Shown piece after piece: positions 2,008 to 52,677 of a stretch of DNA of 64,000 bases. How positions within the stretch are numbered: position 1 is the first letter of the stretch; the number at the start of each line of letters is the position of its first letter. Made by a program: the position numbers and the translations under genes. The notes under the pieces are model-generated. The model had not been told where the DNA came from. It saw nothing but the letters and a program-made list of their open reading frames with translations, and did not search any database. This DNA is from Rhodocyclaceae bacterium (GTDB lineage: Bacteria; Pseudomonadota; Gammaproteobacteria; Burkholderiales; Rhodocyclaceae): the NCBI GenBank assembly GCA_028687645.1, contig JAQTZQ010000002.1, forward strand, positions 23,781 to 87,780, in the 5' to 3' direction.

Positions 2008-3299
2008 CAGAAAAATCACCCCCCAGTGAACTTGTTTCCTTTCTCGAAAGCCTGACGGAGCCACATATTCTTTGCGACCGTAACTACCGTATTTTGGCCG
2101 CCAACCCAGCTTATCGGAGCAAATGGGAGGGGAGCCGCGAGATCATCGGTCGTACTTGTTACGACGTTTCGCATCACTACAAACTGCCTTGCGATCAAGT
2201 GGGGGAGTCTTGTCCGCTGCAACGCTCCTTGCGTTCCGGGCAACGCGAGCGTGTCGTCCATTTGCACCATACCCCGCATGGCGAGCGTTTCGAGAATATC
2301 GAACTGTCGCCGATCCGCGATGCTTATGGCGACATTGCCTACTTCATTGAAAAAATTGACCCGCTCCCCGTGCCGCGCAGTGACGAGCACGCGCGCGGAC
2401 TGATTGGCCGTTCGCCGACTTTTATGGCGATGATGGATCTGGTTGCCCGCGTCGCGCCGGCTGATGCCGTGGTTTTGCTCCAAGGCGAATCCGGTACCGG
2501 CAAAGAGTTGGTCGCCAACGCCATTCACCAGATGAGCCGGCGGTCGGATCGGCCTTATATTGCGGTCGACTGTTCAGGCCTTGCCGAAACCTTGTTTGAA
2601 AGCGAACTCTTCGGCCACGAGCGCGGCGCGTTCACCGGTGCAGTGGCGCGTAAAACCGGGCTGGTCGAGGCGGCTTCAAGCGGCACGCTATTCCTTGATG
2701 AGGTCGGCGATATTCCGCTGTCGATCCAGGTCAAACTGCTGCGCCTGCTGGAAACCGGCACCTACCGCCGGGTCGGTTCGCCGGAAGTATTGCAGGCGGA
2801 TGTTAGAGTCATTTCAGCGACGCATCGCCCGCTGGCCGAGATGGTCGAGGCCGGTAGTTTCCGTCAGGATCTTTATTATCGTCTCAACATTTTCCCGATA
2901 TTTCTGCCCGCTCTGCGTGAGCGCCGGGATGACATCGTGCTGCTGGCTGAGAGCCTGCTTACCCGCGTTTCCGGTACGCGCTCCCTGAAGCTCTCGCGAG
3001 ATGCTATCAACTGGCTGCGGGATTACGATTTCCCCGGCAATGTGCGCGAGTTGCGCAATCTGCTCGAACGCGCCTGTCTGCTCACCGACGGCGATGAAAT
3101 CGACCTTCGTCACCTGCCAGCCGGTACCTTGGATCAAGTGTTACGGTCAACGCGGAAAACTGGGCAAAAATCGAAGTTGACTGATGAACAGTTGCTGGAG
3201 GTGGCGAAAAACTTCCCGGGAAGCCGCAAGGAACTGGCGCGCCATCTCAATCTTTCGGAACGCACGCTTTACCGTCGCCTGAAAGAGCTGGGCATTTGA
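2001..3299 (+). CDS. Sigma-54 dependent transcriptional activator with PAS sensor, AAA+ and Fis-type HTH domains
   Basis: About 432 residues. I place the start at the ATG at 2001 ([11 protein letters not shown]), which has GGAG 9 nt upstream; the ORF track start at 1914 would add 29 unlikely residues. Domains in order: a PAS sensor (about 12-125) holding the unusual segment [17 protein letters not shown] with two cysteines near histidines; an AAA+ core (about 140-370) with Walker A GESGTGKE, the sigma-54 contact loop GAFTGA and Walker [11 protein letters not shown]; and a C-terminal Fis-like helix-turn-helix ([20 protein letters not shown]). There is no receiver domain, so it should sense a signal directly, plausibly redox, metal or a small ligand through the PAS cysteines. 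It is divergent from the Rieske gene and convergent with the octaheme/cytochrome b operon, both of which carry sigma-54-like promoters. Confidence 0.93.
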
Positions 3300-3327
3300 T
3301 TTTTCGGAATAGGCAAAAAATCCAGGC

Positions 3328-3354
3328 AAAAAAAGGGCGGGAATAATCCCGCCC
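3328..3354 (-). terminator. Rho-independent terminator after the cytochrome b gene
   Basis: Perfect 8-bp stem GGGCGGGA / TCCCGCCC with a 4-nt loop. On the minus strand it is followed by seven T residues. It lies 23 bp past the cytochrome b stop, in the convergent gap with the sigma-54 activator. Confidence 0.85.
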
Positions 3355-3376
3355 AAACACGCAAGGTAAATCTTGA

Positions 3377-3991
3377 TCAGGCCTTGTGATGACCGTCCAC
3401 ATCTTCCCAGCCGGTGATCATGGCTTTGATGTGAGCAAAGATCGTGTGGCCGGTCGTCGTCAGATAGACGTGAATAAAGAAGAAGGCAGTAATCATGAAA
3501 GCGCCGAGGGTGTGCGCAACGGCAACAACCTCCAGCGTCAGATACTGGTCAATCCCGAATTTAGCCCAGTCACCATAGAACAGATAAAACAGCCCGGAAC
3601 CCCAGATCAGCGGCGAAATGAAGGCCAGCAACGCCAGATAAGCCAAACGCTGCAAGGGATTGTGTTTCTGCACGACAGTTTTACGGAAGGGATGCGGTGA
3701 GTGCGTAAAGATACCGATGGTGTAGTAATGAATCATCGCCATCACATTCTTCAGCGAAGGCAGGTATTGGCGCCATTCTCCCGTCGTGAATTGCCAGAAA
3801 ATGGTGAACGCCCACAGCGTTAGCAAGGTCCAGGCGGCTAGCGTGTGCAGATTACTGGCCTTGGCAAAGCCCAAAATGCTGTAGCTGCCATGAACCTCGA
3901 AGCCGGTGATCATCATGACGATGATCAAGAGCGCCTGTGACCAGTGCCAGAACCGCTCATAACGCTTGTAGATGTAAATACGTTCGCTCAT
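3377..3991 (-). CDS. Membrane b-type cytochrome, quinol-oxidising partner of the octaheme cytochrome
   Basis: 204 residues with about four hydrophobic helices and histidines placed as in the cytochrome b561 / Ni-Fe hydrogenase b-subunit superfamily: FWHWSQALLI in helix 1, NLHTLAAW in helix 2, AVAHTLGAFM and FFFIHVYLTTTGH toward the C-terminus. Such subunits hold two b hemes and move electrons between the quinone pool and a periplasmic redox partner. The start overlaps the stop of the octaheme cytochrome gene by ATGA, so the two are translationally coupled and very likely form one complex. A terminator follows. Direction of electron flow is inferred from the partner family, which usually reduces substrates. 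Confidence 0.88.
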   Translation of the reverse strand: MSERIYIYKRYERFWHWSQALLIIVMMITGFEVHGSYSILGFAKASNLHTLAAWTLLTLWAFTIFWQFTTGEWRQYLPSLKNVMAMIHYYTIGIFTHSPHPFRKTVVQKHNPLQRLAYLALLAFISPLIWGSGLFYLFYGDWAKFGIDQYLTLEVVAVAHTLGAFMITAFFFIHVYLTTTGHTIFAHIKAMITGWEDVDGHHKA

Positions 3992-5652
3992 TTTGCTTGC
4001 TCCTTGCGGCGGGTCAGATAACGGGTTAGGCCATGAATGAAGCCGACACCAATGGCACCGACGATGGCCAGGCCACCAAATAGATCAACCCAACTGTTAC
4101 GGTCACGGCCAGGCATATAGATACCGGTAATCGAGGCAAGACGACCACTTGCTTCACGGGTATGGCACTCAGCACAGGGAACCGCTTTCTCTTTCGGCGC
4201 AACCATGTGAGTGATGAACCAGTGCATACGGGTTTCGATAAAGTCGAATTTGCCACTGTAGGGCAGGCCGGCAGTATCCATACCCGCTTTGATGGCTTTC
4301 GCGTAATCGTAATGCTTCCAGAACGCCGTATCGTCGTCGCCGAAAACGTGATTGACCACCAGCGTGTTATTGACCGGATCGTAGGCTTGCTTGCCACGCA
4401 TGACTTTAAATGGCCAGATGCGGGCATCTTTGTCGCTTGCTGAACCCTCGATGCGGTTCAGTTCGAGAACGCCATCCTTGCCAATGTACTTGTCCAGTTT
4501 GTCAATAATCGATACCTGCTCGACAGTCCCGTTGTACCATTTGTACTCGGGGCGAACATTTTCACCGTACTCGAAGTTACCCTTTGCTGCCGAGTACTTC
4601 AGATGCCCATGGTCATCCTTGATGAATAATGGTTTGCCGTCAGCATCCATTTTTCCGGCGGTAGACCAGTCCCAGACCATCTTCGTGGCGATTCCGCCAC
4701 GTGCAAACTCAGGGATATGGCAAGTCTGGCAGGCCACCTTGTTGGTGTGGGTGTTGATCTTGGCTTCCTTGTGCGGCGTGAAGCCGTGGCAGGACTCGCA
4801 AGTGGCGCGGTTGTGGTCATCCTTGGGCAGGTCAAAACCATGCTTATCCTTGGAAGTCACCGCATAACGGCTACCGGAAGGCTGGTGTCCATTGAATGTA
4901 TGGCAATCTGCACAAACCATGTTGGCGCCGTCCTCGGCCATGTGCACATCGAGTTCCTTCTTTGGTTTGGTCAGCGAAGAGTCGAGGTCGCCGTGCTTCA
5001 CCGCATCACCACCGCCACCACTGAAGTGGCAGCTACCGCAATTTTTGCGGCCGGGCTTGCCGACGTGCTGGGCGATGTTGGTCAGGTCAGGTGCCTTGAA
5101 CAGCTTCTTGCCAGGAGGCCCTTCCATCGGCTCGAATTCACGATCGGCATAGAGCGGGTGCCCGGCATCGGTGCCGAATTTTTTGTAGGTGCCGGTGTTG
5201 TCATGACAGGCGAGACAGTCGACGTTGCTCTGGTCGGTAAAGTCAAAATTTTTGTCCTTCCAGCCATAGCCGGCGTGACAACTGGTGCAGCGCGTCTCGT
5301 TGGAAATGGGTGAGCCGCAGAAGTTATTGGCCGCCCACTTCTTGCCCAGGGTCTTGCCGGTCGTTGGGCTCTTGGCTTCCCAGGACCAGTGGATACTCTT
5401 CATGACCTGATGGCCTGCGGTGTTATGGCAGGACAGACAGGCTTTGGTCACTTCAGGCCCGGTCTTGAACGGCCCTTTCAGGGCTTCAAGTTTGCTGTGG
5501 TCGGTGGTGGTGTTGCTAAACGACTTGATGGCCGCAGCCGGGCTACTCACCGCGTCAGGATTGGCAACCGCCGCCGGATTGGCGTGTACTCCCAAAGCAA
5601 TACTGCCTAAAAAACAGATAGCCCCAATGAATTTTGATGATCTGGAAAACAT
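3988..5652 (-). CDS. Octaheme c-type cytochrome, tetrathionate reductase (OTR) family, membrane-anchored
   Basis: 554 residues with an N-terminal export signal and exactly eight CXXCH heme sites (CLSCH about 72, CTSCH 122, CLACH 146, CGSCH 205, CADCH 247, CESCH 285, CQTCH 308, CAECH near 490). The blocks CHDNTGTYKKF after heme 3 and CGSCHFSGGGGDAVKHGD at heme 4 are characteristic of the octaheme tetrathionate reductase family; in the Shewanella enzyme a lysine takes the place of histidine as ligand of the active-site heme, and the YKK lysines are the likely equivalents. Unlike a soluble OTR it ends in a hydrophobic helix (LAIVGAIGVGFIHGL) and positive tail, which should anchor it to the inner membrane facing the periplasm. 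The physiological substrate is open: homologues reduce tetrathionate, nitrite or hydroxylamine in vitro. The RBS is a G-run (TAGGGGGGG) just before the ATG. Confidence 0.93.
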   Translation of the reverse strand: MFSRSSKFIGAICFLGSIALGVHANPAAVANPDAVSSPAAAIKSFSNTTTDHSKLEALKGPFKTGPEVTKACLSCHNTAGHQVMKSIHWSWEAKSPTTGKTLGKKWAANNFCGSPISNETRCTSCHAGYGWKDKNFDFTDQSNVDCLACHDNTGTYKKFGTDAGHPLYADREFEPMEGPPGKKLFKAPDLTNIAQHVGKPGRKNCGSCHFSGGGGDAVKHGDLDSSLTKPKKELDVHMAEDGANMVCADCHTFNGHQPSGSRYAVTSKDKHGFDLPKDDHNRATCESCHGFTPHKEAKINTHTNKVACQTCHIPEFARGGIATKMVWDWSTAGKMDADGKPLFIKDDHGHLKYSAAKGNFEYGENVRPEYKWYNGTVEQVSIIDKLDKYIGKDGVLELNRIEGSASDKDARIWPFKVMRGKQAYDPVNNTLVVNHVFGDDDTAFWKHYDYAKAIKAGMDTAGLPYSGKFDFIETRMHWFITHMVAPKEKAVPCAECHTREASGRLASITGIYMPGRDRNSWVDLFGGLAIVGAIGVGFIHGLTRYLTRRKEQAK

Positions 5653-5889: not shown

Positions 5890-8448
5890 TTAAACCTTAA
5901 GCCTTTCCATCAATTCTGTTTCCAGCTTGATGCGCTTTGTACTCTCACGCAAATCACCACCGCTGATCAAAAAGACGTCTTCCGCACGCTCGCCCAAGGT
6001 GGTAATTTTGGCAGTATGCAACGAAGCACCATGCTCGGTAAGTGCGTTGGCAACGGTGTAGAGCAAGCCGGGGCGATCGGCAACAATCAACGAGAGAATG
6101 AAATGTGCGCCACGTTCATCGCCTTGAATAGTCACTTCTGGTTTGATCGGGAAATGTTTGACTTGGCGCGACAAACGTCCAGCGGAGGGCTTCTCTGCCG
6201 GAAGTTGCCGGATCAGACGATATTCGAGTTCATGTTCGATATAGGTGAGCATCTCGCGATCATTGTCACGCTGGGAAATATCGAGCAAAACAAAACTGTC
6301 CAATGCGTAGCCATGGGCCGTGGTATGAATTTTTGCATCGACAATGTTGTAGCCAGCGCGGGCAAAAAAGCCAACGATACGGGCGAATAGATCAGGCTGA
6401 TCTTTGGTGTACACCATGACCTGAAGCCCCTCGCCATCCTGATGCAGGCGCGCCCGAACCACTGGCTGGTCATTGGAAATCCGATAGTGCAGCGAGCGTG
6501 TATGCCAGGCGATTTCCTCGGCGGAGTGACGTAAAAAATAAACAGTATCGAGTTGTTTCCACAAGCGTTCATGAACAGTTGCCGACAGCGCAAAATAGCG
6601 CAGCAGTCGCATGGCTTCGGCCTGGCGTTCGGTAATCACCCCGTGCGGTGCCGTTACGTTTTCCTGCCCAAGCTGGTCATGGGTTAACGAAAACAGGTCA
6701 TACAGCAGTTTGCCTTTCCATTGATTCCAGACTTTTGGGCTGGTACCGCGAATATCGGCATGGGTCAGCAAATAAAGTCCGGTCAGATGGCGTGTATCGC
6801 CCATCAGGCGGGCAAAAGCACCAATTACGTCAGGATCGCTAAGATCCTCCTTCTGCGCCACACGCGACATAACCAGGTGGTTGCGGACGAGCCAGACGAC
6901 TAACTCGGTATCCTCTTCGGAGAGCAGGTGATCTTCACAAAAAGTGCGGGCATCGACCGTACCGAGTTCTGAGTGATCGCCACCGCGACCTTTGGCAATA
7001 TCATGAAAAATTGCAACCACATAGAGTAACCATGGCCGCTCAAAATCACTGATGGAACGCGTACAGAAGGGGTACTCGTGGGCAAATTCACTCATCGTGA
7101 AACGGCGAATATTGCGCAGTACCTGCAAAATATGCTGGTCAACCGTGTAAACATGAAATAAATCATGTTGCATCTGGCCGACAATGCGCCCAAAAGCGGG
7201 CAGGTAGGTACCCAGAATATCGAGCTGGTTCATTCGGCGGAACTCATGAACTACGCCGCGCTCACTTTGAAACAACGCCAAAAATGCTGCACGGACTGCT
7301 GGATCAGCACGGAACTCAGGGGTGATGAGCTTGCGTGCACGCCACAAGGCTCGCAGCGTCCGTGCAGTCATCCCTTGCAGTTCCCGGTTCTCCTGCATTA
7401 CCTTGAAAGTGTCGAAAATGGCTACAGGTTTGCGCTCGAATAGATTTTCATCACGTAGATCGAGCAAACTGCCAACTGATTGAAAATCTTCATCGATGGC
7501 GAATGGCTGTTTTTCGTTTTCCGGCGCCAGTGCGGTGCCAATGTTTTGCAGCAAAATCGTATTAAGCAGGGTGATCGCCTTGGCATTACGATAGTACCCC
7601 TGCATGAACTGTTCGGACGCACGCGTTTCTTGCGTAGATTCAAAACCGTATTGATTGGCCAGGGTATTTTGATAATCGAACAGCAGACGATCTTCGCGCC
7701 GACCAATCTGAAAGTGCATCCGGATACGCAAATGACGCAAAAATAATTCACAAGCCTCAGCCTGCACCTTGTCATCTTCAGTCAAAAAGCCATTCTTTAC
7801 AAAGTCAGCCCATGTCGTACCAAAGCCAGCTGCTTTGGCAATCCAAAAAATGACCTGTAAATCGCGTAGACCGCCAGGCGCCTCCTTGAAATTCGGCTCC
7901 AGGCTGTAAGGTGTTTCGTTGAAACGCAGATGGCGTTCCTGTTGCTCCAATCGTTTTGCTTCACAAAAAACCATCGGATCGAGATTGCCGTGCAGGCGCT
8001 TCTCGAAGGTGTTGAATATTTTTTCGTTGCCGATGACAAAGCGGGCTTCGAGCAGCGCTGTTTGGATCGAAATATCGTTACTGGCTTCATCCAGACACTC
8101 CTGAATAGTGCGTACGCTATGACCGATCTCCAGCCCAATATCCCAGAAATAGCTGACCAGTTTTTCCAGTTTTTCCTGCAATACCTGACTGGGTGGCTGG
8201 TTCAGGAGAATCAGCAAATCAATATCTGACGCCGGGTAGAGTTCCCCGCGACCATAGCCACCGACTGCGGCGAGAGTCAATGAACTGGGGAAATCGAGAC
8301 TCTGCCAGAGGCGAATGAGAACTTCATCAACTTGCCGACTGCGGGTTTGAAGCAAGGCCAAGGCATCATGATCCTGCTCGTAAGCCGCACGCAGCGCCAA
8401 CTGCATGGCCTTTACTTCACCGCGCAGAGCGGTAATTTGCTCAATCAT
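5890..8448 (-). CDS. glnD: Bifunctional uridylyltransferase / uridylyl-removing enzyme
   Basis: 852 residues, normal for GlnD. It senses glutamine and adds or removes UMP on PII proteins, setting glutamine synthetase activity and nitrogen gene expression. The N-terminal nucleotidyltransferase motif is [20 protein letters not shown] (about 63-82). The central HD phosphohydrolase motif ([15 protein letters not shown], about 480) does the deuridylylation. Two ACT domains at the C-terminus (from about 680 and 790) bind glutamine. Its start codon overlaps the map stop, so map and glnD form one operon, an arrangement common in Proteobacteria. Confidence 0.97.
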
Positions 8449-47554: not shown

Positions 47555-47600
47555 TTGACAGAGAAATTGCCCCGCTATAACCTAGTCATTCAACTAGTCA
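47555..47600 (+). promoter_or_regulatory. Promoter and operator of the phd/PIN toxin-antitoxin pair
   Basis: TTGACA (47555-47560) and TATAAC (47576-47581) are 15 bp apart, short of ideal but close. Directly after them CTAGT-CATTCA-ACTAG (47582-47597) is an inverted repeat, and CTAGTCA occurs twice 12 bp apart. This is where a Phd-type antitoxin would bind to repress its own operon. The RBS GAAGGGG follows. Confidence 0.55.
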
Positions 47601-47613
47601 GAAGGGGCTAAAA

Positions 47614-47877
47614 ATGCATACTTGGCCAGTTCAGGATGCCAAAGCAAGATTCAGTGAGTTTCTTGATGCCTGTATCGCTGAGGGACCACAAATGGTAACG
47701 AAGCGTGGGGCTGAAGCCGCAGTTTTAGTCCCTGTGCAGGAATGGCGGCGACTGCAATCCGCAGCACGCCCCACGCTCAAGCAACTTTTACTCTCGGATA
47801 CAGCGCGCGGCGAATTGATCATTCCAGAGAGAGGCCAAGCCCGGCGGCGCGAAGTCAACGCTTTGGCGTTTGAATGA
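47614..47877 (+). CDS. Antitoxin, Phd/YefM family
   Basis: 87 residues. The N-terminus HTWPVQDAKARFSEFLDACIAEGPQMVTKRGAEAAVLVP is the Phd/YefM DNA-binding fold, and the C-terminal tail (SDTARGELIIPERGQARRREV) would wrap the toxin. It represses its own operon in known systems and neutralises the PIN toxin encoded 4 bp downstream. It is the first gene of the accessory island. Confidence 0.92.
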   Translation: MHTWPVQDAKARFSEFLDACIAEGPQMVTKRGAEAAVLVPVQEWRRLQSAARPTLKQLLLSDTARGELIIPERGQARRREVNALAFE

Positions 47878-47881
47878 ACCG

Positions 47882-48292
47882 ATGTACTTACTCGACACCA
47901 ATATCATCTCTGAATTGCGCAAACCTCGTCCGCATGGGGCTGTGCTGAGTTGGCTAAATTCAATCGACGATGCACAACTTTATTTGTCCGCCGTCACACT
48001 GGGGGAAATACAGGCCGGCATTGAGTTAACGCGAGAACAGGACGAAGCCAAAGCAAAAGAAATTGAAGCCTGGCTTGAACTTGTTGCCGCCACCTATAAT
48101 ATTTTGGCAATGGATGCTGCCACCTTCAGGTGTTGGGCTCGCTTGATGCACAAAAAATCAGACACCCTATACGAAGACGCGATGATTGCAGCAACGGCCA
48201 AAATACATCATTTGGTGATAGCCACACGAAATACCGCTGATTTCAACGCACTTGGGGTAAACGTATTTAATCCGTTTGAATTTTCTGGCTGA
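47882..48292 (+). CDS. PIN-domain ribonuclease toxin, VapC family
   Basis: About 136 residues from ATG 47882 (MYLLDTNIISELRKP); the track uses TTG 47870, which overlaps the antitoxin. PIN acidic residues are visible: the Asp of LLDTN, the Glu of LGEIQAG, and the Asp of LYEDAMIAATA and RNTADF. Such toxins cut tRNA or rRNA when free of antitoxin. It is coupled to a Phd-family rather than VapB-family antitoxin, a common mixed pairing. Confidence 0.93.
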   Translation: MYLLDTNIISELRKPRPHGAVLSWLNSIDDAQLYLSAVTLGEIQAGIELTREQDEAKAKEIEAWLELVAATYNILAMDAATFRCWARLMHKKSDTLYEDAMIAATAKIHHLVIATRNTADFNALGVNVFNPFEFSG

Positions 48293-48311
48293 CAAAGAAG
48301 GATTTCGAAAC

Positions 48312-48926
48312 ATGGCCTTACCGAAAGCCCTTAAACCATCTTTTACCTACGCCGACTACCTGAAATGGCCAGATGACGAACGCTGGGAGCTGATCGACGG
48401 CGAAGCGTATGCCATGGCGCCAGCGCCGACCATCAGCCATCAGACGCTCGCTGGACAACTATTCCGCCAAATCGACGAAGCCCTCGACGGCGCCCCATGC
48501 CGCGCCCTCATCGCGCCGGTCGACGTCCTGCTCCCGGCCTCGGATGAGGCCGACGATCACGCCACCACCGTCGTCCAGCCTGACATCCTGGTTGTTTGCG
48601 ACCCCAAAAAACTCACCGAACGCAACGTGCGCGGCGCACCGGACTGGATCATCGAAATCCTCTCCCCCGCCACCGCACGACACGATCACCTGACTAAACG
48701 CAATCTTTACCAACGTGCAGGCGTTCGCGAATATTGGCTGGTTCACCCGGTTGACCGTGTGCTGACTATTTATGTCCTGCAAGATGGCCAATACGACGGC
48801 CCGGAAATCGCCGAAATGGCTGGAGAACGTGCCCCGACCATTTTCTCGGAGATCGTGATTCGCTGGCAGCCGATTCTGGATAAATTACTTCATAACGACA
48901 TACATCCGGAAGACAGGCCGGTATGA
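48312..48926 (+). CDS. Uma2-family (DUF820) putative endonuclease
   Basis: 204 residues from ATG 48312 (MALPKALKPSFTYADYLKWP), with AAGAAGGA upstream; the track's TTG start overlaps the PIN toxin. The fold is PD-(D/E)XK-like: ELIDGEAYAMAPAPTISHQ, the catalytic VVQPDILVV and PDWIIEILSPATARHDHLTKR, and YREYWLVHPVDR are standard Uma2 blocks. The family is expanded in cyanobacteria and scattered elsewhere; its role is unknown. It sits 19 bp after the toxin gene but is probably independent of it. Confidence 0.88.
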   Translation: MALPKALKPSFTYADYLKWPDDERWELIDGEAYAMAPAPTISHQTLAGQLFRQIDEALDGAPCRALIAPVDVLLPASDEADDHATTVVQPDILVVCDPKKLTERNVRGAPDWIIEILSPATARHDHLTKRNLYQRAGVREYWLVHPVDRVLTIYVLQDGQYDGPEIAEMAGERAPTIFSEIVIRWQPILDKLLHNDIHPEDRPV

Positions 48927-49003
48927 GTTTCACCTCTAATCGCCATATAAATAGAACTACGCTCCATTTGCACCACAATCATTAGTCCTCAAAAGAAGTC
49001 ATC

Positions 49004-49885
49004 ATGGCACTCAATTACGAAAAACTGATCCACCTCAAACTTAAGACCCATCCGACGCTAAACGAAAAATGGGTACAAGATCGCATCTCCGAAGACCCAA
49101 CAATTTTGGGGCTGGATGACGTTATTCTTAAAGACCGCGAAAGGAATCAACCTCGCGCCGGCAGACTGGATTTGCTTCTGCAAGAAGCAGAGGGAAACCG
49201 ACGATACGAGGTGGAAATTCAGCTTGGGAAAACTGACGAGTCTCACATTATCCGAACTATCGAGTACTGGGACATTGAGCGAAAGCGGTATCCACAGTAC
49301 GACCACACTGCTGTTATCGTTGCTGAAGAGATCACAAGCAGATTTCTCAACGTGATTTCTTTGTTTAACGGCACCATTCCACTTATTGCAATCCAAATGC
49401 GGGCAGTTCAGCTTGGCAATACCGTATCCCTTATTTTTACAACTGTATTGGATCAGGTACAGCTTGGTCTCGTTGATGAGGACGAAGAAGTTCATGAAGC
49501 CACGGACAGGGCATACTGGGAAGCGCGCGGCTCCAAAGCAACCGTAGCAATGGCTGACGAGTTACTGGAAGTTCTCAAACAACTTGATCCGTCGCTTGAG
49601 CTCAAATTCAACAAGTTTTATATCGGTCTTGCAAGACAAGGACAGGCAGACAATTTCGTCATTTTCCGCCCTCAGAAGATTTCCATGCGCGTGGAGCCTA
49701 GGCTAAAAAAACAGGATGAGATTGAACAGAAGATAGAAACTGCCGGGCTAGATGTTTTGGACTATGACAGTCGTTGGAATCGGTACAGAATTCGGCTCGG
49801 CAAAGGAGATGTAAAAAAGCACGCAGAGTTACTTCAGGAACTTTTTTCTGCTGCACATGGTGAGTCCGGTGGAAACGAAAGCTAA
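49004..49885 (+). CDS. PD-(D/E)XK-like protein with C-terminal DUF5655-like domain
   Basis: 293 residues. The N-terminal half carries a nuclease-like core (GRLDLLLQEAEGNRRYEVEIQLGKTD), in which the usual ExK is ExQ. The segment ESHIIRTIEYWDIERKRYPQYDH looks like a conserved family block. The C-terminal part (FVIFRPQKISMRVEPRLKK through RWNRYRIRLGKGD) resembles DUF5655 domains; this is from memory. Base composition is more AT-rich than in the core genes around it, hinting at transfer. I cannot assign a function; a nuclease with restriction or defence role is possible, and the altered K residue may mean it is inactive. Confidence 0.65.
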   Translation: MALNYEKLIHLKLKTHPTLNEKWVQDRISEDPTILGLDDVILKDRERNQPRAGRLDLLLQEAEGNRRYEVEIQLGKTDESHIIRTIEYWDIERKRYPQYDHTAVIVAEEITSRFLNVISLFNGTIPLIAIQMRAVQLGNTVSLIFTTVLDQVQLGLVDEDEEVHEATDRAYWEARGSKATVAMADELLEVLKQLDPSLELKFNKFYIGLARQGQADNFVIFRPQKISMRVEPRLKKQDEIEQKIETAGLDVLDYDSRWNRYRIRLGKGDVKKHAELLQELFSAAHGESGGNES

Positions 49886-49954
49886 CCCGCTTTTCCAGAA
49901 GAGGAAAAATAGGGCACGGCCCACATTTTCCAGACAATACGAAAGGAAGATTTC

Positions 49955-50173
49955 ATGACTCACACCGATCTTGCCAAAATGCCTGTCTCGGAAAAAATCC
50001 AACTGATGGAATCGCTCTGGGAAAGCCTAAGTAGCAGCGAGTCAAGTGCTGTAGCGATTCCCGCTTGGCATGGTGATGTTCTTGCCCAACGTCAAGTAAT
50101 GCTCAATCAGGGAGCAGAGTCAATATCCGCCTGGAGTGATGCGAAACAACGTATTCGTAGCCGTACCGCTTAG
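49955..50173 (+). CDS. Antitoxin, putative addiction module component (TIGR02574 type)
   Basis: 72 residues. The layout (LAKMPVSEKIQLMESLWESLSS, then IPAWHGDVLAQRQ) is that of the small antitoxin component found next to RelE/ParE toxins. GAAAGGAAG precedes the ATG. It ends 7 bp before the toxin gene. Confidence 0.88.
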   Translation: MTHTDLAKMPVSEKIQLMESLWESLSSSESSAVAIPAWHGDVLAQRQVMLNQGAESISAWSDAKQRIRSRTA

Positions 50174-50180
50174 GGAATAA

Positions 50181-50483
50181 ATGAAGACTTTCCTAACCCG
50201 CTCTGCCGAGCAAGATTTGCTGGATGGCTATGGGTTGTACGAGCAACAGGCTCCGGGTGTTGGCACCTATTTTCTCGATAGCCTTTTTGCTGACATCGAC
50301 TCTCTCGTACTTTACGCAGGCATCCATCCCAAACCCAATTGTCGTTTTCACCGAACCTTGGGTAAGCGTTTCCCCTTTGCGGTGTACTACCCGATGGATG
50401 GTGAATTGGTCACCGTTATGGCGATTCTTGACTGCCGCCAAAACCCGCGACAAATCCGAAACAGGCTCAGCGAGAGACAATGA
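50181..50483 (+). CDS. RelE/ParE-family toxin
   Basis: 100 residues with the short alpha-beta fold of the family: AEQDLLDGYGLYEQQAPGVGTYFLDSLFADID, then RFPFAVYYPMDGELVTVMAILDCRQNPRQI. RelE types cut mRNA on the ribosome; ParE types poison gyrase. The RFPFAVYY and C-terminal region fit the ParE-like group slightly better. It is coupled to the antitoxin upstream. Confidence 0.9.
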   Translation: MKTFLTRSAEQDLLDGYGLYEQQAPGVGTYFLDSLFADIDSLVLYAGIHPKPNCRFHRTLGKRFPFAVYYPMDGELVTVMAILDCRQNPRQIRNRLSERQ

Positions 50484-50512
50484 GCTGAGCGTTTACAAGG
50501 ACAAAAGGCACC

Positions 50513-51697
50513 ATGCTGACAGAAGAACAATTAAAAGCACTGCTATCTGATCTGGAGTCAGATCGTATTGAGCGTACGGCATCTACTAATAATTCAGACA
50601 AATTCGGCCAAGCAATCTGTGCTTTCGCGAATGATTTGCCCAATCATCGGCAATCGGGCTATTTGCTCGTCGGCGTAAATGACAACGGGACACTCTCTGG
50701 GCTGACTGTTACCGACGAACTTCTAAAAAATCTTGGGGGCATTCGGTCTGATGGCAACGTCCTGCCGCAGCCCGTAATTAACGTTGCAAAATATTCTTTT
50801 GAAGCGGGTGATATTGCGGTTGTTGAAGTCATTCCATCCGACCTGCCCCCTGTCCGTTTCAAAGGGCGCATTCACATACGCGTTGGTCCGAGAAAGGCGA
50901 TTGCCAATGAGCAGGAGGAACGCCTTTTATCCGAACGCAGAGTTGCCTTGGCTCGTTCATTCGATGCGCGCCCCTGTACGGAGGGAACGCTGGACGATCT
51001 GGCATTGGGTCAATTTGATGCCTATCGTAGAGAGGTGGTTGATCAAGAAACTATTGCGGCCAATCATCGCCCTGTTGAGCTACAGCTTGCTTCCCTACGA
51101 TTGTTTGACCCCGAACGCGCATGCCCAACCCATGCCGGGATTCTTCTTTTTGGTAAGAATCCACGCTTTTTCCTGCCGGGAAGCTATGTTCAGTTTCTAA
51201 AGCTACCCGGCACTGACCTGACAGATATGCCCGAAGACCAGGCTGAAATCTCCGGGGATCTACATTCCATCCTGCGCGAGTTGGAAGGTCGACTTAAGCT
51301 ATTGATAAAGACAACAATGCACCCAATCAGCACATTTGAAGAAAAACTGCTGCCGGATTACCCGGAATGGGCATTGCGCGAGCTACTGATGAACGCCGTC
51401 ATGCACCGAAATTACGATAGCAATAGTCCGATCCGCTTCTACGCATTTTCAGAGCACATCGAAATACAAAGCCCCGGCGGACTCTACGGTGAGGCCACTC
51501 CTGAAAATTTTCCTACACGCAATAGCTATCGGAACCCCGTAATCGCTGAAGGCATGAAGTCTTTGGGATTTGTGAACAGGTTTGGTTATGGCGTCCAGCG
51601 CGCCCAGGCATTACTTGAGCAAAACGGCAATCCACGGGCTCAATTCGAGTTCGATGAGCATAGTGTGCTGGTCAAAATTCTCCGGAGGCCTGCATGA
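50513..51697 (+). CDS. AlbA_2 (Schlafen-type) and HATPase_c_4 protein
   Basis: 394 residues. The N-terminal AlbA_2 domain (about 10-130: ESDRIERTASTNNSDKFGQA, YLLVGVNDNGTLSGL, RFKGRIHIRVGPRKAI) is related to the Schlafen core, where some members cut tRNA. The C-terminal part is a GHKL-like ATPase fold (ALRELLMNAVMHRNYD, IEIQSPGGLYG, FVNRFGYGVQRAQALL). Proteins of this layout are often labelled RecG-like by mistake. Its stop overlaps the ParA-like gene by ATGA, a tight two-gene unit. The DNFSDK segment and absence of nearby core homologues support a transferred cassette. Function is unknown; a defence or stress role is inferred. Confidence 0.85.
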   Translation: MLTEEQLKALLSDLESDRIERTASTNNSDKFGQAICAFANDLPNHRQSGYLLVGVNDNGTLSGLTVTDELLKNLGGIRSDGNVLPQPVINVAKYSFEAGDIAVVEVIPSDLPPVRFKGRIHIRVGPRKAIANEQEERLLSERRVALARSFDARPCTEGTLDDLALGQFDAYRREVVDQETIAANHRPVELQLASLRLFDPERACPTHAGILLFGKNPRFFLPGSYVQFLKLPGTDLTDMPEDQAEISGDLHSILRELEGRLKLLIKTTMHPISTFEEKLLPDYPEWALRELLMNAVMHRNYDSNSPIRFYAFSEHIEIQSPGGLYGEATPENFPTRNSYRNPVIAEGMKSLGFVNRFGYGVQRAQALLEQNGNPRAQFEFDEHSVLVKILRRPA

Positions 51698-52677
51698 AGA
51701 CTATCGCCTTCTTCAACAACAAGGGCGGCGTGGGTAAAACTTCTCTCGTTTACCACCTGGCCTGGATGTTTGCTGATCATGGCATCAAAACCCTGGCTGT
51801 CGATTTGGACCCCCAAGCCAACCTCACTGCCATGTTTCTGGACGAAGATCGTTTAGAAAGCCTCTGGCCGGACGATGAGCATCCTGACACGGTCTATGGT
51901 GCAATTCGGCCAATACTCAGGGGCATTGGGGATATTGCCCATCCCCATGTAGAGAAAATCCACCCAAAGCTTGGTCTCTTGCCAGGCGACCTCGGTTTAT
52001 CCAGATTTGAAGACAAACTGTCCGACGCTTGGCCTCGTTGCCATAATCGTGACGAATCTGCCTTCCGCACAATGACAGCATTTCACAGACTAGTGCAACA
52101 AGGTACTGAGTGGGGGGCTGAACTCGTATTGATTGACGTCGGCCCGAATCTCGGCGCAATCAATCGTGCTGCCCTTATTGCCTCTGATCAAGTTTGCTTG
52201 CCGTTGGCTCCCGATCTTTTCTCGCTACAAGGTTTGAAAAACCTGGGGCCTACACTCCGCGAATGGAGACATGTCTGGTCAGACATGCTATCCAAAGCAC
52301 CAGCAGACCTGTCATTGCCCAAGGGCGCCATGCAACCGATTGGCTACATCGTTATGCAGCACGGAATTCTCGATAGCCGTCCAGTCAAAGCCTACAAGCG
52401 ATGGATGGATCGCATACCAGGCGTCTATCGTGAATCCGTTTTGGGAGAAGAAAATAAAACGCTTCCGAGCACAGCCCAAGACCCTTATTGTTTATCCTTG
52501 CTTAAGCACTATCGGAGTCTGATGCCTATGGCGAAGGAAGCACGCAAACCGATTTTTTTCCTAAAATCAGCGGATGGAGCAATTGGTGCTCATATTGAAG
52601 CCGTAAGAAGCTGTTACACAGACTTTAACAAGCTGGCATCAAAAATTGCGGCACATGCTGGAATTGCATTTAGTTAG
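51694..52677 (+). CDS. ParA/Soj-like ATPase coupled to the AlbA_2 gene
   Basis: 327 residues. The deviant Walker A KGGVGKTS (about 11-18), LAVDLDPQANLT (Walker A') and ELVLIDVGPNLGAINRAAL (Walker B) mark the ParA/MinD group. There is no ParB gene or centromere-like array beside it, so plasmid-style partition is unlikely. The long C-terminal extension (about 200-327: RPVKAYKRWMDRIPGVYRESVL) is specific to a subgroup. The ATGA overlap with the AlbA_2/HATPase gene implies they act together. I recall the same pair elsewhere in Proteobacteria without a known role. Confidence 0.88.
   Translation: MKTIAFFNNKGGVGKTSLVYHLAWMFADHGIKTLAVDLDPQANLTAMFLDEDRLESLWPDDEHPDTVYGAIRPILRGIGDIAHPHVEKIHPKLGLLPGDLGLSRFEDKLSDAWPRCHNRDESAFRTMTAFHRLVQQGTEWGAELVLIDVGPNLGAINRAALIASDQVCLPLAPDLFSLQGLKNLGPTLREWRHVWSDMLSKAPADLSLPKGAMQPIGYIVMQHGILDSRPVKAYKRWMDRIPGVYRESVLGEENKTLPSTAQDPYCLSLLKHYRSLMPMAKEARKPIFFLKSADGAIGAHIEAVRSCYTDFNKLASKIAAHAGIAFS

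Follow-up and report, generated by a model that had tools for sequence, protein, structure and literature searches.

Two overlapping genes in a Rhodocyclaceae genome raise the question of what a Schlafen-type protein and a ParA-type ATPase do together. The genes, here called A and B, lie in a window of 64,000 nucleotides, the whole stretch of DNA that was analysed (contig JAQTZQ010000002.1, positions 23,781 to 87,780). An original prediction, made from the letters alone, had proposed that they form an undescribed sensor-effector pair, possibly antiviral. Our main reading, to which we give a probability of roughly 0.6, is that A and B form a horizontally mobile two-gene anti-phage module in which A is an RNase effector held inactive by the ParA-type protein B. 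The features referred to below are as follows, in window coordinates.

50513..51697, + strand: gene A, 394 aa, SLFN_AlbA_2 plus HATPase_c_4 (GHKL-like), predicted effector (Pfam, AlphaFold, Foldseek)
50555..50899, + strand: SLFN_AlbA_2 domain of A, residues 15-129 (Pfam 1.3e-16; E15/E20 invariant, D57 >90%)
51392-51406, + strand: N-box N294/H298 of A, just upstream of HATPase_c_4
51425..51676, + strand: HATPase_c_4 domain of A, residues 305-388 (Pfam 8.6e-16)
51684..51688, + strand: GGAGG, Shine-Dalgarno-like for B, within the A coding sequence (read directly)
51694..52677, + strand: gene B, 327 aa, ParA-type deviant Walker A ATPase, predicted regulator/sensor (Pfam, profile, AlphaFold)
51715..51741, + strand: Walker A NNKGGVGKT of B, residues 8-16 (family alignments)
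52516..52587, + strand: C-terminal signature of the effector-linked ParA family in B, residues 275-298, SLMPMAKEARKPIFFLKSADGAIG (family alignments)

Domain architecture of the two proteins

Both predicted ORFs were found, and the stop codon of A and the start codon of B share the sequence ATGA at 51694-51697, a 4-nt overlap. The GGAGG lies 6 nt upstream of the B start codon, inside A. Pfam confirmed the fusion of an AlbA_2 domain to a GHKL-like fold in A, with PF04326 (SLFN_AlbA_2) scoring 61.6 bits against a curated cut-off of 25.3. No further Pfam domain was detected after HATPase_c_4, and A ends at residue 394. In family alignments, E15 and E20 were invariant in 43 sequences and 98% conserved in 76, and in a sequence alignment they coincide with the SLFN11 motif ESxxxE, with E-x4-E spacing. 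Schlafen13 requires the equivalent glutamates to cleave tRNA/rRNA (PMC5862951). D57, which is more than 90% conserved, aligns one residue off the third Schlafen acid (D248 of rat SLFN13), whose counterpart in A is thus less certain. The AlphaFold model of A (mean pLDDT 91.5, pTM 0.66) was most similar in Foldseek to DIP2311 of Corynebacterium diphtheriae (3lmm, E 9e-21), followed by human SLFN12, SLFN14 and SLFN11 and the rSAMD9 tRNase domain, while its C-terminal half matched histidine-kinase CA domains. The two glutamates and the structural matches suggest that the AlbA_2 domain is a Schlafen-type RNase, and by analogy tRNA would be its likeliest target. In the GHKL-like part, N294 and H298 are invariant and the glycine motifs are kept. 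The N-box glutamate E290 is frequently Q among relatives, so that A may not hydrolyse ATP.

B matched Pfam AAA_31 (3.3e-28) and also CbiA. The lysines of its Walker A motif are conserved at 100% (K10) and 96% (K15), and family alignments revealed a conserved extended C-terminus, LMPMAxEARKPIFxLKxADGAIGxH. This agrees with the predicted ParA-type protein with a long, specific C-terminus, and the predicted lack of a ParB partner also held, since neither the ORF list nor Pfam placed a ParB gene adjacent to the pair. The parB gene that stands beside parA in canonical ParABS is thus missing from the window locus. The AlphaFold model of B (mean pLDDT 92.9) was closest in a structure search to C. diphtheriae DIP2308 (3pg5), followed by Soj, Delta and McdA, and a sequence profile identified DIP2308 as a full-length relative (E 1.6e-75). 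DIP2311 and DIP2308, to which the models of A and B come closest, are structural-genomics proteins of unknown function with ~20% identity to A and 25-30% to B, respectively. Their genes belong to the same C. diphtheriae locus, with tags three apart.

Conservation and distribution of the pair

A phylum search of 399 genomes returned B relatives of at least 48% identity in ~20 genomes, and nearly all of those in which the contig extended upstream had A or an A fragment directly upstream of B. Scanning a single genome for each species yielded 80 named loci, 76 of them with B at 47% identity or above, and A was directly upstream in 75 of these 76. The overlap was exactly 4 nt in 51 of 86 loci when the longest ORF was taken as the start. 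In the reverse search, with A as query, A of the window clade was found in 16 of 237 genomes, in each case at a locus already known through B, and none of the 237 carried an A of this clade without B. The pairing in 75 of 76 loci and the outcome of the reverse search make A-B an obligate module. The pairwise distances of A and B are also correlated (Pearson 0.70, 75 loci), and the recurrence of the same pair and order, usually with the same overlap, in dozens of species is far beyond chance.

By record titles, over 15 phyla are represented, among them Cyanobacteriota, Actinomycetota, Bacteroidota, Acidobacteriota, Chloroflexota, Planctomycetota and Fusobacteriota, along with several candidate phyla. 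Because many of the records are metagenome bins, single assignments may be wrong. Isolates among the carriers include Kutzneria, Streptomyces, Larkinella and a complete Nostocales chromosome, and the E. coli genomes gave no A-B match, which leaves the pair without a copy in a well-studied strain. Nearly every copy is chromosomal: among plasmid records there were only B relatives below 60% identity, and viral contigs held just a few copies. In the window, A-B has a GC content of 0.50 compared to 0.58-0.59 in flanking genes, and a GC3 of 0.49 compared to 0.64-0.75. The low GC and the patchy distribution fit a horizontal gain of the pair.

The GC content of 0.50 extends over the aroG-serB interval (47600-52677), where GC3 is 0.47-0.49 and the flanks again have 0.58-0.59 and 0.64-0.75; this composition is consistent with the interval being a gained island. 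The genome also encodes two more near-full-length A relatives at 28-30% identity (L034 on G000:C217 and L035 on G000:C213).

ParA relatives with other partners

More distant ParA relatives of B (25-36% identity) have the C-terminal motif in common and other genes at the partner position. Among 151 distinct ParA relatives, A was upstream in 100, and the partner was a SIR2 protein in 15, a HEPN protein in six and a RelA/SpoT protein in five. No partner was recognised for the remaining 25, many of which are loci with a broken or cut A; the ParA lineages without a recognised partner are L024, L040, L041, L042, L196, L194, L199 and L203. The SIR2 genes (PF13289) are downstream of ParA, mostly with a 4-nt overlap, as are, in position, the HEPN genes (PF18735; L027, L030, L038, L043, L152 and L178) and the RelA/SpoT genes (PF04607), so that gene order differs from that of the window pair, where A precedes the ParA gene, a difference that weighs against our main reading. 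The actinobacterial search gave a single genome with a PIN_12 partner. When 30 Soj control loci were compared with the partner profiles, none matched (0/30). SIR2-type relatives on viral contigs (L262-L264) adjoin integrase-like genes.

A tree of 59 sequences, comprising effector-linked ParAs and Soj, placed all effector-linked ParAs in one clade relative to Soj (support 100/100), with B separated from Soj/ParA proper by a branch of 3.4 changes per column. The AlbA_2-linked (100/100), SIR2-linked (96/91) and HEPN-linked (97/77) ParAs each formed one clade, and the RelA/SpoT-linked ParAs formed two. The partner labels required six changes on the tree, where the minimum is five and the shuffled mean 32.9. 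This clustering suggests that partners were exchanged few times and long ago, and that each type then spread.

ParA/MinD ATPases are known for the placement of DNA and cell machinery. B has the deviant Walker A ATPase fold of the ParA/Soj partition proteins, but differs from them in its separate clade, its own C-terminus, the lack of ParB and the effector-type partners found in its clade. One could still suppose a partition-like system in which A takes the place of ParB as adaptor for a mobile element, given that B is a true ParA-family ATPase with no ParB nearby. We consider this very improbable, because most copies are chromosomal and lie between housekeeping genes, no replication gene was noted beside A-B copies, and B is so distant from Soj/ParA proper.

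A closer precedent is the dyad of a HEPN protein (MAE_18760 family) and a ParA/Soj protein, predicted in 2013 by Anantharaman et al., who proposed the ParA/Soj protein as the antitoxin (PMC3710099). Like that dyad, A-B consists of two genes for a predicted RNase and a ParA/Soj-like ATPase, and some B relatives do have HEPN partners. B is likewise coupled to a predicted effector gene and belongs to the same clade as the HEPN-linked ParAs. A-B differs in that the partner is an AlbA_2/HATPase_c_4 protein, is upstream rather than downstream and is linked to a ParA clade of its own. The combination of a common ATPase with interchangeable enzymes suggests a regulatory role for B and an effector role for A. 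Judging from the SIR2, HEPN and RelA/SpoT effectors, A would halt growth, most likely via tRNA cutting.

We see an even chance that the generalisation holds, namely that one ParA-type ATPase clade is the shared regulator/sensor for Schlafen RNases, SIR2 NADases, HEPN/PIN RNases and a RelA/SpoT-like synthetase, forming an immune superfamily that works alone, in prophages or as inserts in BREX/Hma operons. If true, the ParA/MinD fold gains a role in immunity as the fixed half of effector-swapping modules.

Genomic context and proposed function

Three loci, titled Proteobacteria (L061), WOR-3 (L063) and Elusimicrobiota (L093), have the order hmaA-A-B-hmaB-hmaC, with the pair nested in an Hma operon; in L061 two extra ORFs, one of them an AbiLi-like ATPase gene, separate B from hmaB. 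On an IMG/VR contig (L261) the order is brxC-pglX-A-B-pglZ-brxL, nested in a BREX operon, and pglZ overlaps the end of B by 4 nt. In Nitrosospira (L047), the mod-res genes of a type III R-M system are just upstream of the pair and mutS follows it. The link to defence neighbourhoods proposed with the original prediction was found for the three Hma loci, the BREX locus and the R-M locus, but nesting was confined to four loci (three Hma, one BREX), and elsewhere the neighbours of A-B are mostly housekeeping genes rather than large defence islands. PADLOC matches came from 16 families among 76 adjacent proteins and from six among 55 distant ones, a modest enrichment that is weak and not our main evidence; proteins above 700 aa were excluded, and several models are generic.

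The nesting and the SIR2, HEPN, RelA/SpoT and PIN partners of B relatives both speak for a sensor-effector pair that may act against viruses. The same observations count against a reading of A as a DNA-binding regulator and B as a ParA-type positioning ATPase, acting jointly in non-defence regulation or placement. In favour of that reading, proteins with the AlbA_2/HATPase_c_4 architecture frequently bear the annotation of transcriptional regulator or RecG-like protein, and positioning of cargo on DNA is a common task of ParA ATPases. Such a role nevertheless seems improbable to us, as no constant third gene or cargo accompanies A-B across loci, the pair is scattered across many phyla and nested in defence operons, and the partners of B relatives are typical toxin/effector enzymes.

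A toxin-antitoxin or addiction module, in which the ParA-like B neutralises an RNase toxin, A, with self-maintenance the main role and any phage effect secondary, is unlikely in our judgement but deserves more weight. The ATPase of the related HEPN-ParA/Soj dyad was proposed as an antitoxin (PMC3710099), and the window copy is preceded by two TA pairs, a Uma2 gene and a 293-aa gene, with mutS close by. The predicted proximity to two TA modules is real in the window but a local feature, since no relatives of the PIN, antitoxin and RelE-like genes there were found beside other A-B copies. Copies with a broken A and an intact B (~12-15) also outnumber those with a broken B and an intact A (two), as expected if A alone is harmful, but this excess is biased, and not part of our main evidence, because the loci were gathered via B, and the reverse search is too small to serve as a correction. 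The almost entirely chromosomal location speaks against addiction, and the Hma/BREX nesting favours immunity over plain addiction. In genome G219, one A gene (L235) is split by a transposase gene (6673-7668, IS30-like by sequence), with B intact.

Under the anti-phage reading, A would be an effector in which a Schlafen-type AlbA_2 RNase is joined to a GHKL-like regulatory domain. B would bind A and keep it inactive by means of a dimer switch that depends on ATP/ADP and acts on DNA or some other scaffold. Infection would alter the state of B and release A, which would then halt translation; this arrest could be an abortive response or could back up BREX, Hma or restriction systems. Alternatively, the nucleotide state of B might switch A on. 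We infer the RNase activity, direct A-B binding, which protein senses, the trigger and phage protection, and a role in abortive infection is possible.

As predicted, the pair is not one of the named systems of PADLOC 2.0: neither A nor B gave a full-length match to any system model. Assignment of A to a pAgo-type system was rejected because the matches were partial and within much longer profiles, and assignment of B to PDC-M28B because the match was partial only. PMC12839542, which cites a preprint (doi 10.1101/2025.07.24.666596), describes bacterial Schlafen RNases that carry a fused minimal histidine kinase (with wHTH) as widespread in BREX and BREX-related loci. A resembles these proteins in having AlbA_2 followed by a HATPase-type domain and in occurring in BREX/Hma operons; it differs in always having a ParA partner, a gene not mentioned in the passages on them, and in having no later Pfam domain. 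The claim of an undescribed system is upheld in part. The individual domains are already known, as are the HEPN-ParA dyad (PMC3710099) and the occurrence of Schlafen effectors in BREX (PMC12839542); these two papers were the only relevant ones in the open-access literature searched. Neither that literature nor PADLOC 2.0 contained the Schlafen-ParA pair or the effector-swapping ParA family, though an earlier description may exist in subscription papers or preprints.

If true, our reading adds bacterial Schlafens with a dedicated regulator and bears on the control of animal Schlafen antiviral RNases. For many gene pairs that lack annotation, one of them in phage Pf1, the partner map gives concrete predictions that can be tested.

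The 293-aa protein in the window (49004-49885) has no Pfam family and a weak match to PADLOC PDC-S18, and is 59% identical to the product of the gene after brxL in L261; its motif RLDLLL...YEVEIQLG suggests a PD-(D/E)xK nuclease. In L193, a 244-aa protein without a Pfam match (3039-3773) directly follows a ParA of B's family, and its start, FLDVLGFSAMV, resembles a nucleotide-cyclase-like domain. The small RelA/SpoT-domain proteins adjoining ParA in L025, L155, L179, L187, L188 and L129, with the ParAs falling in two separate clades, may be toxic alarmone synthetases that have a ParA as regulator. In phage Pf1 (L038, AY324828.1), an unannotated 175-aa HEPN ORF (4019-4546; PF18735, 2.4e-9) overlaps Orf317, a ParA-like gene, at its end, so that the phage appears to carry a ParA-HEPN dyad.
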